Part shown: one piece after another, positions 52,549 to 57,314 of the stretch
How positions within the stretch are numbered: the first letter of the stretch is position 1
How the letters are laid out: each line of letters starts with the position of its first letter
Source of the DNA: Candidatus Bathyarchaeota archaeon
GTDB lineage: Archaea; Thermoproteota; Bathyarchaeia; Bathyarchaeales; Bathycorpusculaceae
Assembly (NCBI GenBank): GCA_026014745.1
Contig: JAOZHS010000002.1
Coordinates: 620,001-684,000, forward strand
Length of the DNA: 64,000 bases
Direction: 5' to 3'
Notes under the pieces: generated by a model
Told to the model about the DNA's origin: nothing
Seen by the model: only the letters and a program-made list of their open reading frames with translations
Databases searched by the model: none
Made by a program: the position numbers and the translations under genes

Positions 52549-52635
52549 GGTACAGGGGCGGGATTCGAGAACCCACATTTTGTTGGCGATATAGCCAGTT
52601 TCCCTTTATGCAGCTTCCTTCCCCTTTTTACTATA
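52549..52635 (-). pseudogene. degenerate tRNA-like 3' end (oldest attachment-site remnant)
   Basis: On the minus strand the stretch ends like a tRNA T-arm and acceptor ('GGTTC...CGAATCCCGCCCC...') but has an extra base in the T loop and no matching 5' half. Its further part resembles the fragment at 53212, including TGGCxATxTxGCCA. It is not a functional tRNA. Confidence 0.5.
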
Positions 52636-52686: not shown

Positions 52687-53136
52687 TCAAACCAATACCT
52701 TTCTTAATACTACCATGTCCTTAAGTTGAATTCCTTCTTCGTAAATTGGCTCTGAATAATTGTCAACAAAAAAGTTCTCCCTAGCGCCAAACAACTCGAA
52801 CCCTTCTTTACGATAAAACCGCAATATCGCTGAAACGTCTCCCGTTCCCACGACAATTGCCTTGAACCCTTTTTCCTTCGCTCTAATTGTCGCATCTCTC
52901 AGCATTAGTCTGCCGAATCCTCTTCCTTGACAGTTGGCAGCAACAGCAATATTTTTTATCTCAATCTCATCGCTGCTGATTGCTTGAAGCACGAATACAC
53001 CAATGATATTGTCATTTTGCTCCAAGACGTAAATGTCAGAGTTGAAAATGTACCTCTTTATTGCTTCCTCGGTTGGGTCTGCAAGAAGTAACAAGTCGAA
53101 AGGTATCTCTTCATCCTTGCCAAGTTGCCTTATCAT
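52687..53136 (-). CDS. GNAT family N-acetyltransferase
   Basis: About 149 residues from the internal ATG at 53136 (MIRQLGKDEEIPFDLLLLA), which fits the family's usual N-terminus; the frame runs on through ATG 53160 to TTG 53187. 'VLEQNDNIIGVFVLQ', 'EIEIKNIAVAANCQGRGFG' (acetyl-CoA-binding loop Q-x-x-G-x-G/A, here QGRGFG) and 'IVVGTGDVSAILRFYRKEGFE' are the ordered GNAT motifs. It transfers acetyl from acetyl-CoA to an unknown amine. It occupies the leftmost module of the tRNA-Leu-anchored island, between two degenerate tRNA remnants. Confidence 0.87.
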   Translation of the reverse strand: MIRQLGKDEEIPFDLLLLADPTEEAIKRYIFNSDIYVLEQNDNIIGVFVLQAISSDEIEIKNIAVAANCQGRGFGRLMLRDATIRAKEKGFKAIVVGTGDVSAILRFYRKEGFELFGARENFFVDNYSEPIYEEGIQLKDMVVLRKVLV

Positions 53137-53211
53137 CTGTTTTTCTAATCCCTTTTTCATGTCATTATGCTTATTAGAATTTGACAATAGGTATGAAAAG
53201 GTTTTTCGATT

Positions 53212-53300
53212 TGGTGCATGGGGGTGGGATTCGAACCCCTAACACGCTGGCGACATCGCCAATTCTCCTTATTCTACGCAACCACTTTCCTTTTTTTAAG
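53212..53300 (-). pseudogene. degenerate tRNA-like 3' end (attachment-site remnant)
   Basis: Reads TGGTGCATGGGGGTGGGATT on the plus strand, nearly the same as the 3' end of tRNA-Leu at 57227 (including encoded CCA), but the T-stem pairs badly and there is no 5' half. The region up to about 53300 aligns by eye with the fragment at 52549. Interpreted as an older integration scar. Confidence 0.6.
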
Positions 53301-53467
53301 CAATTAGAAAACATATGAACCTTTGGAGCGGCGAATCCGATGGGATATGCTCCCAGTTCTCAGAGGTGACATCTCCAGCCAATCTTTTTTTGGAATTTCT
53401 ATTCTTGATCTGTTCTTAGACTTTGCTGCGGTAGGATGGCAATTTAACCAGAAACAGGGAATTAGGC

Positions 53468-53659
53468 CTATTCGAAGATGAATAATTCATCAATCGTTGT
53501 ATGTAAAGTTTTTGCGATATCATACGCTAGCTTGAGCGAGGGATTGTAGTTTCCTTTTTCTATGAAGAGTATGGTTTCTCTTCGCACTCCCACCTTTTTA
53601 GCGAGGTCTTCCTGTGTTAGGTCGTATCTTGCCCTCAATTCCTTTATTCTGGTCCGCAT
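53468..53659 (-). CDS. XRE/Cro-type helix-turn-helix regulator
   Basis: 63 residues, almost purely HTH_3: '[20 protein letters not shown]' is the first helices and '[24 protein letters not shown]' the recognition helix and scaffold. This compact form, next to a DUF2178 membrane protein, is a common archaeal/bacterial pair. It starts at an ATG five bases after the DUF2178 stop, so it is the last gene of a three-gene minus-strand operon. Part of the middle island module, bounded by two tRNA-like sites. Confidence 0.93.
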
Positions 53660-53664
53660 TGCTG

Positions 53665-54009
53665 TTATGGTTCTCCTTTTCTGCCAAAATACAATCGAAG
53701 CACAATAAAGGATAACGCGGAAACCAGGAGTGCAGCTATCAACGGGTAGCCTGCTTCGATTTCAGGCATTCCAAATAATTCTTTTCCAACGAAAGTAATC
53801 CACAGGTATGCTAAGATGAAGTATTGGCATATGAACATCGCGTAGTATGCCGCTTTCCCGTTTAGCTTCTGAGTTCTTTCATCCTTTAACGGAAAACCAG
53901 ACTTTTTTTCTTTGATCATAGCGCGCGTTTTCCAAAGCGCTAAAACGCCGATTAGAATAATCAATACAAGTATTCCAATGCTTACGATGGGCCAAATGAA
54001 ATCAGCCAC
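53665..54009 (-). CDS. DUF2178-type membrane protein
   Basis: 114 residues with three hydrophobic helices: about 5-27, 58-75 and 86-105. The charged segment after the first helix, '[22 protein letters not shown]', with the DERT motif, is characteristic of DUF2178 proteins, which usually lie next to small XRE regulators as here. Function unknown; probably a membrane-signal/regulator pair. The start overlaps the preceding gene by eight bases. Confidence 0.82.
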
Positions 54010-54241
54010 TCAACACACCTCTATTTGATGTTTTGTTTTTTGATGATATGGATGCAAATGTAGCACCAGAAGTGCCGATCAAGCCAATTCCGACTATTCC
54101 TATAACAGTTGCAATGCCAGTATGCTTTTCTCCTAAGAGTGCATCTCCGAAAGCCATCAATACAGCTCCCGTCAAGCAAATTGCCAACCCCAGCGCAAAG
54201 ATTGCTATCGCATATTTTCTCATTTTTTCAATCTCCGTCAT
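54002..54241 (-). CDS. small two-helix membrane protein of the XRE/DUF2178 operon
   Basis: 79 residues: 'MTEIEKMRKYAIAIFALGLAI' with helix 1 (about 9-30), then helix 2 (about 42-64, 'VIGIVGIGLIGTSGATFA') and a polar tail. No family is recognised. It is the first gene of the three-gene minus-strand operon and overlaps the DUF2178 gene by eight bases. Confidence 0.7.
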   Translation of the reverse strand: MTEIEKMRKYAIAIFALGLAICLTGAVLMAFGDALLGEKHTGIATVIGIVGIGLIGTSGATFASISSKNKTSNRGVLSG

Positions 54242-54293
54242 TTATTTCACATATTATGTTATGTTTAAAACGCTTTAAGTTAGATATATGTAA

Positions 54294-54431
54294 CATCAGG
54301 TATTTAACTGTTCTCGCTGCATCTCAAAAGCTGCGAAAACTCAGAAAGACATCTACCGCTTAGTCGAAGCAGGATTTGAATACGTTACCGAATTTGAAGG
54401 CCCAAAAATCCTTCGAAAAACAAAGCTATAG
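54294..54431 (+). pseudogene. tyrosine-integrase C-terminal remnant
   Basis: A 45-codon open stretch with a stop at 54429-54431 and no upstream catalytic part. From 'ISKAAKTQKDIYRLVEAGFE' to 'YVTEFEGPKILRKTK' it matches, from memory, the conserved tail of archaeal XerC-like tyrosine integrases ('YISKVAKT..E...LIEAGFEYV...G.K.FRK'). The catalytic R..HxxR..Y core is missing, so it is inactive. It ends 52 bp before the tRNA-Leu attachment copy at 54484, where an integrase would be expected. Confidence 0.65.
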
Positions 54432-54483
54432 TCTGCAAAACATAAGTAACCGTCGCGGGACAATAGACCTGCCTATTTATTTA

Positions 54484-54540
54484 TGGTGCAGGGGGTGGGA
54501 TTCGAACCCACGAACGCCTACGCGAAAAGGGTCTAAGTCA
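54484..54540 (-). repeat. attachment-site duplicate: 3' part of tRNA-Leu
   Basis: Positions 54484-54525 are identical over 42 bp to 57227-57268, i.e. the CCA end, acceptor 3' strand, T-arm and part of the variable arm of tRNA-Leu(UAG). Similarity continues with small losses through the anticodon region (GGGTCTAAG versus GGGTCCTAAG), then stops; the 5' half is absent. This is the classical attL/attR pattern of integration at a tRNA 3' end. Confidence 0.85.
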
Positions 54541-57226: not shown

Positions 57227-57314
57227 TGGTGCAGGGGGTGGGATTCGAACCCACGAACGCCTACGCGATAGGGTCCTAAGCCCTACTCCGTTGACCTGGC
57301 TTGGAGACCCCTGC
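57227..57314 (-). tRNA. tRNA-Leu (anticodon UAG), CCA encoded
   Basis: Minus strand. Acceptor GCAGGGG (5' end 57314) pairs with CCCCTGC; the 3' end is A-CCA at 57227-57230, so CCA is in the genome. D-arm 'CCAAGCCAGGTCAACGG', anticodon stem TAGGG/CCCTA with loop CTTAGGA (anticodon TAG), long variable arm (CGCGTAGGCG) as in class II tRNAs, and T-arm GTGGG-TTCGAAT-CCCAC. It is the intact end of the island; its 3' end is duplicated at 54484. Confidence 0.95.

Follow-up and report, generated by a model that had tools for sequence, protein, structure and literature searches.

Genes and features of the locus

The window, by which we mean the whole 64-kb stretch of DNA analysed, contains an intact tRNA-Leu(TAG) gene, here listed with the features to its left, from left to right and with the strand.

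52554-52629, plus: older, degenerate left end, which bounds a 0.66-kb segment with one GNAT gene (E 6.6e-5 and E 3.4e-7)
52687-53187, minus: GNAT acetyltransferase, in the next outward segment
53213-53297, plus: left element end, a 26-nt copy of the tRNA 3' end followed by the conserved interior GCTGGCGACATCGCCAATT (leave-one-out model, E 4.8e-14, the best in the window)
53338-53403, plus: second, degenerate left end, candidate start of the tail's element (E 3.9e-4, 2.9e-4 and 1.4e-4 in three model scans)
53468-53659, minus: HTH regulator (HTH_3), cargo of the tail's element
53665-54009, minus: DUF2178 membrane protein, cargo of the tail's element
54002-54241, minus: 79-aa membrane protein, cargo of the tail's element
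54303-54431, plus: C-terminal tail of a tyrosine integrase, with homology from 54303 and the stop codon at 54429-54431; no start, no catalytic core
54432-54483, plus: right-end spacer of 52 nt, which aligns with the spacers of intact tRNA-Leu(TAG) elements in two other genomes, G013 and G107
54484-54537, minus: partial copy of the 3' part of tRNA-Leu(TAG), 93% identical over 54 nt and reaching the anticodon loop
54579-56990, minus: DEAD/Helicase_C/MZB (MrfA/Hrq1-like) helicase; the inner segment 54484-57226 holds no other gene
57227-57314, minus: intact tRNA-Leu(TAG), the anchor of the array

An integrase tail devoid of a catalytic core

The plus-strand stretch at 54294-54431 comprises 45 codons and a stop codon (translation HQVFNCSRCISKAAKTQKDIYRLVEAGFEYVTEFEGPKILRKTKL), without any ATG, GTG or TTG start. 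A first-pass annotation had proposed that it is the C-terminal tail of an archaeal tyrosine integrase lacking its catalytic core, to be checked by a protein search. Scanned by themselves, the 45 residues had no match in Pfam or NCBIfam. Direct comparison did identify integrase ends: 35 residues of the tail align at 66% identity with the end of a 391-codon ORF of the same genome (E 3.2e-10), and this full relative is a Phage_integrase protein (PF00589, E 9e-20). The closest intact relative of the tail is a 442-codon frame in G013, a genome of the same genus (75% over 36 residues, E 8.7e-12), which is the best match among the 61 genomes searched, own genome included, 55 of which match the tail at E <= 0.01. 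A profile of 383 positions built from 27 full integrases, window excluded, matches 54303-54425 at its positions 342-383 (34.7 bits, i-E 2.8e-12). This is the sole place in the whole 64 kb that scores above 0 bits, and 30 mononucleotide shuffles gave at most -2.4 bits. These analyses confirm that the stretch represents the last ~41 codons of an archaeal tyrosine integrase.

The catalytic core of tyrosine recombinases has the motif R..HxxR..Y. It is missing here, as the profile match is confined to positions 342-383, beyond the catalytic Tyr. No integrase core was found upstream of the tail, where the minus-strand gene at 54002-54241 starts 62 bp before the homology. Because the match starts past the catalytic Tyr, the tail is a remnant and not an enzyme, in agreement with the annotation.

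The closest named relatives of the full integrase come from Bathyarchaeota MAGs, some of them labelled Crenarchaeota or uncultured archaeon, and they point to Bathyarchaeia as the lineage of the window. The relatives of the tail carry PF00589 and, besides it, only an N-terminal match (DUF7838 or an InsA-type zinc ribbon). Two of the integrases (L034 11536-12708 and L043 2693-3871) have an N-terminal zinc-binding stretch like that of IS1/InsA transposases. In IMG/VR, two contigs of 32 and 26 kb (L146 and L147) terminate close to integrases that share 42-45% identity with the full relative, which suggests that some carriers may be viruses.

Right and left ends of the tail's element

As annotated at first, the tail ends 52 nt before a tRNA-Leu copy, its stop codon ending at 54431 and the copy starting at 54484. 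Intact relatives are similarly placed: the 391-codon integrase ends 38 nt before an intact tRNA-Leu(CAG), and the intact gene in G013 ends 46 nt before tRNA-Leu(TAG), the same tRNA as that duplicated in the window. The tRNA-Leu(TAG) locus was fetched from 18 other genomes, and in nine of them an intact integrase of the tail's family abuts this tRNA. In order and spacing, the tail, its spacer and the tRNA copy correspond to the right end of intact elements. Alignment with the G013 and G107 spacers showed that the window spacer has lost part of the right arm motif, TCGCCAGCGGGAC. At one other locus (L037 9514-9587), the geometry is unlike the rest: another integrase frame has a tRNA-Ala(CGC) on its own strand, immediately upstream of its 5' end or overlapping it.

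At the far ends of related elements, the tRNA copies have a common interior motif of the type TGGMGAYATCGCC. A left-end model built without the window ranked 53213-53287 first in the 64 kb (E 4.8e-14). Leaving aside the bare tRNA copies at 54485 and 57228, the next ranks go to two degenerate ends, 52553 with E 6.6e-5 and 53340 with E 3.9e-4. Without its tRNA part, the model still placed 53242-53300 at the top of the window (E 2.7e-4), and other genomes match the first 60 bp inside this left end at 80-85%.

With this end to its left, the tail closes an element that has no integrase and measures 1.27 kb, or 1.15 kb should it start at 53338. The tail's element therefore lies leftward, from 53213 or 53338 to 54483. 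Between 53213 and 54483 no integration gene was found beyond the tail, the loss of such genes being one of the marks of CIMEs (see below). Of its att ends, the left is well preserved and the right has a damaged arm motif. The copy at 54484 is both its right boundary and the outer boundary of the helicase segment. The operon of three genes (HTH, DUF2178 and 79-aa membrane protein) recurs elsewhere in the genomes G065 and G070, and the 125-bp scrap between 53213 and 53338 is integrase-less.

The helicase segment and the layering of insertions

The same helicase segment is found at tRNA-Leu(TAG) in genome G025, with 88% protein identity. There, homology stops exactly at the partial tRNA copy, the flanks beyond it differ, and no integrase tail is present beyond the copy. 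We considered the tail as part of the helicase segment and rejected this possibility, since the G025 segment occurs without a tail and the tail's geometry fits a leftward element. The first-pass reading of the tRNA duplicates as traces of a mobile element gains support from the tail, with the correction that the latter belongs to the left element.

In genome G015, the tRNA is occupied by a full-integrase element that has its left end ~35.5 kb away, 845 bp before the helicase. The helicase has thus been displaced from the tRNA by the newer integrase element, which argues that newcomers enter at the tRNA and that older insertions are pushed outward. In the window, the tail's element may instead have used the outer tRNA copy of the helicase segment as its entry site, which makes the order of insertions ambiguous. 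The copy that bounds the helicase segment reaches the anticodon loop (54 nt here, 44 nt in G025), whereas those of integrase elements are 26 nt long, and this greater length suggests the possible involvement of a different recombinase. In all, three or more insertions are layered at the locus.

Tail-only remnants in related genomes

We surveyed 12 genomes, in which 59 tail and 70 core matches were paired by position. Thirty-eight of the tails are paired with a core and 21 are not; one of the latter lies at a contig edge, leaving 20 informative tail-only loci, window included. Their profile matches begin at positions 319-359 with no core upstream, a range set partly by construction, as the 'no core' definition excludes starts much before 319. 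Conversely, 29 cores have no tail match. Fourteen are in frames of at least 300 codons and 15 are short; the check for diverged tails covered the short ones, of which 10 keep a diverged tail, one is cut by a contig end and four are truly tail-less. With 20 tail-only loci versus four core fragments truly without a tail in the 12 genomes, the loss is strongly one-sided. Erosion that cannot cross an essential tRNA gene accounts for this in part. Tails of 22-62 codons recur beside tRNAs, and several tail-only remnants delimit compact segments of one to a few genes whose ends are well kept.

In eight of the 20 tails, in seven genomes, the HMM match starts at 319-326, within a few codons of the motif LGHKNIKN, just before the catalytic Tyr (L068, L072, L075, L078, L080, L188, L189 and L194). 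This common breakpoint may be real, or it may reflect a local-alignment effect or assembly chimerism. Upstream of the tail in L075 is a reading frame that may be that of a phage prohead protease.

Arrays and compact segments in the same genome

A census of the genome that contains the window, using a left-end model of 22 sequences (three of them its own) and the fetched loci, gave eight left ends in four arrays, at tRNA-Leu(TAG) (three), tRNA-Leu(CAG) (two), tRNA-Cys (two) and tRNA-Phe (one, weak, with the motif half only). Two elements encode a full integrase of the tail's family, at tRNA-Leu(CAG) and tRNA-Phe. The rest are integrase-less: the 0.66-kb GNAT segment, the tail's element, the AAA ATPase segment, the two at tRNA-Cys and the 125-bp scrap. 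The compact ones (GNAT, AAA ATPase with a 12-codon tail, and the two at tRNA-Cys) have one gene in 0.66-2.3 kb. At tRNA-Leu(CAG), the left neighbour of the full-integrase element ends in a 12-codon tail, FEGAKIFRKHKL and the stop; the AAA ATPase segment (L034 4649-6645, contig C1) is 2.0 kb long and codes for this single protein, whose best PADLOC hit is AriA, ahead of its 12-codon tail.

A 54% homologue of the AAA ATPase cargo is found 284 bp from a tRNA-Ala(CGC) in G015 (contig C1; L198 7753-9740), where no left end was recognised. At tRNA-Cys, two integrase-less single-gene segments stand in tandem (L197 4906-9216, contig C1, 958905-963215). The right end of the outer one reads LFRIRK and a stop, then ATCGCCA, which by eye resembles the final codons of the integrase elements and their arm motif.

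Similar compact segments in other genomes, among the loci reached by the searches and thus not a random sample, code for proteins such as an Mrr-type nuclease, a RhuM protein, a PQQ-type beta-propeller or an ABC exporter. The left-end scores of integrase-less and integrase-bearing elements overlap.

Origin of the integrase tail

We consider it highly probable that the tail is the 3' remnant of a classical integrase gene, i.e. with the att site outside the gene, in a decayed CIME-like element that is ordinary in kind. An element whose integrase points at, and ends ~50 nt from, the tRNA 3' end would have entered tRNA-Leu(TAG). After insertion, a rebuilt tRNA would have stood beside the end of the integrase gene, and the far, left end of the element would have carried a tRNA copy of 26 nt. 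The integrase would then have been lost up to its last ~41 codons, probably by deletion rather than by arrival of an element already devoid of it, leaving a presumably immobile segment of 1.15-1.27 kb with the HTH/DUF2178 operon and both ends recognisable. A second, unrelated-looking segment, that of the helicase, now lies between the tRNA and this right end, and its insertion, presumably a later one at the same tRNA, would account for the 54-nt copy at 54484.

The pN/pS of the window tail relative to the nearest intact gene is 0.36, compared with 0.33 for 30 tail-only sequences and 0.23 for 35 full genes, a small shift in a comparison of low power; the tail-only set includes frameshifted longer copies and contig-edge cases. 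The raised ratio and the damaged right motif are signs in line with decay. The decay after integration put forward in the first-pass annotation is likely, without being the sole possibility, since the order has repeated cases of tail-only elements whose ends are preserved. The 41 tail codons contain no stop and are still 75% identical to an intact relative, a degree of preservation that would not be required of old neutral debris. Simple decay is also at odds with how well the left ends are kept and with the compact, single-gene make-up of the segments, and these features keep alive, as a minority view, the alternative considered next.

These segments might be non-autonomous cassettes that never carried, or have long shed, an integrase, that kept both ends and that are or were moved in trans by the full-length integrases of the family, a reading that we regard as possible and clearly the less probable of the two. 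It agrees with the excess of tail-only remnants over tail-less core fragments in the 12 genomes, with the compactness of the segments that run from a left end to a tail, to a right end or to a tRNA, with the eight left ends versus two full integrases in elements bounded by such ends in the own genome, and with the overlapping left-end scores. However, no full second copy of the 1.25-kb tail element, of the ATPase cassette or of the tRNA-Cys cassette was found in 162 genomes, which counts against recent mobility, and in G015 and G008, which encode homologues of the tRNA-Cys cargo, these are not flanked by element ends. Erosion that cannot cross an essential tRNA gene would also leave the tail in place, and the right-end motif in the window is damaged. 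In its full form, the proposal would be that Bathyarchaeia harbour integrase-less cassettes of ~0.7-4 kb, with a tRNA-3'-end copy and a TGGCGAYATCGCCA-like left end, and a right end retaining the last integrase codons, which move in trans and stack at tRNA genes, the window tail being such a right end; we advance this tentatively.

The open frame and the recurrence of short tails beside tRNAs might suggest that the host retains the tail as a small functional gene or as a conserved DNA signal, but this is improbable. The window copy has no start codon, and in-frame stops are present in 4 of the 14 tails that were read out (L066, L069, L082 and L091). Tail lengths vary widely and pN/pS is above that of full genes, and this comparison, of low power, gives no support to selection on the tail as a protein.

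Suicidal integration of the SSV type, with the tail as the int(C) piece left by crossover inside the integrase gene, is very improbable, although the mechanism is known from archaea as described in PMC8371274. The gene remains unsplit after insertion in the relatives, the closest of which end 35-50 nt from the tRNA with the copy outside the gene. In addition, an int(C) piece would carry the catalytic domain, which is missing here, and the family matches PF00589, whereas the account in PMC8371274 gives PF16795 for suicidal integrases. We therefore rejected such splitting for the tail's family, whose integrated copies are intact PF00589 proteins. Finally, chance resemblance, conceivable for a short stretch without a Pfam match, is refuted by the E-values (3e-10 and 9e-12), the profile score (34.7 bits versus at most -2.4 in shuffles) and the geometry.

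Arrays formed by site re-use and suicidal integrases have been described (PMC6563490, PMC8371274), as have integrase-carrying viruses of Bathyarchaeia (PMC10848311). Lateral transfer has been suggested for PQQ genes in this class, according to PMC11697101, and one tail-capped segment (L201) carries a PQQ-type beta-propeller gene. The present analysis shows how tRNA genes act as sites of gene gain in an archaeal class that is abundant and uncultured. The left-end model and the integrase-tail profile provide sequence handles for detecting insertions now devoid of an integrase. Were the segments still mobile, they would represent the archaeal equivalent of cassette arrays and might partly account for patchy gene distributions.

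Comparison with known systems

Tycheposons, which have family-specific recombinase and replication genes, are similarly tRNA-bounded, carry cargo and use a tyrosine recombinase, and we compare them by analogy only. With 4-200 kb, as given in PMC10872708, they are far larger than the window segments.

The ssrA islands of Dehalococcoides are likewise arranged in tandem at one RNA gene and bounded by 3' repeats, of ~20 bp, and 15 of them without an integration module were suggested to be CIMEs (as reported in PMC3146451). They involve a serine recombinase and the tmRNA gene, in contrast with the tyrosine integrase and several tRNA genes here, where the segments also look smaller.

With the pNOB8-type, or classical, archaeal integrases, the tail's family shares a gene left intact on integration, att sites outside the gene and a tRNA target (as described in PMC6563490 and PMC8371274). 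Unlike them, only the tail is left in the window, and its relatives have an IS1-like zinc-binding N-terminus.

CIMEs (cis-mobilizable elements), as defined in PMC5704250, have lost their integration genes, keep attL and attR, and form tandem arrays with elements inserted later into the 3' end of a target gene. The window element differs from them in being archaeal, in the size of the segments (0.7-4 kb), in that no conjugation genes were seen, and in the graded integrase stub that marks one end. CIMEs are mobilised in cis with a neighbouring element, and the window element is likened to them by its sequence: as in CIMEs and the tandem accretion of ICEs or IMEs, an integrase-less element stands in tandem with probable later insertions at the same target.
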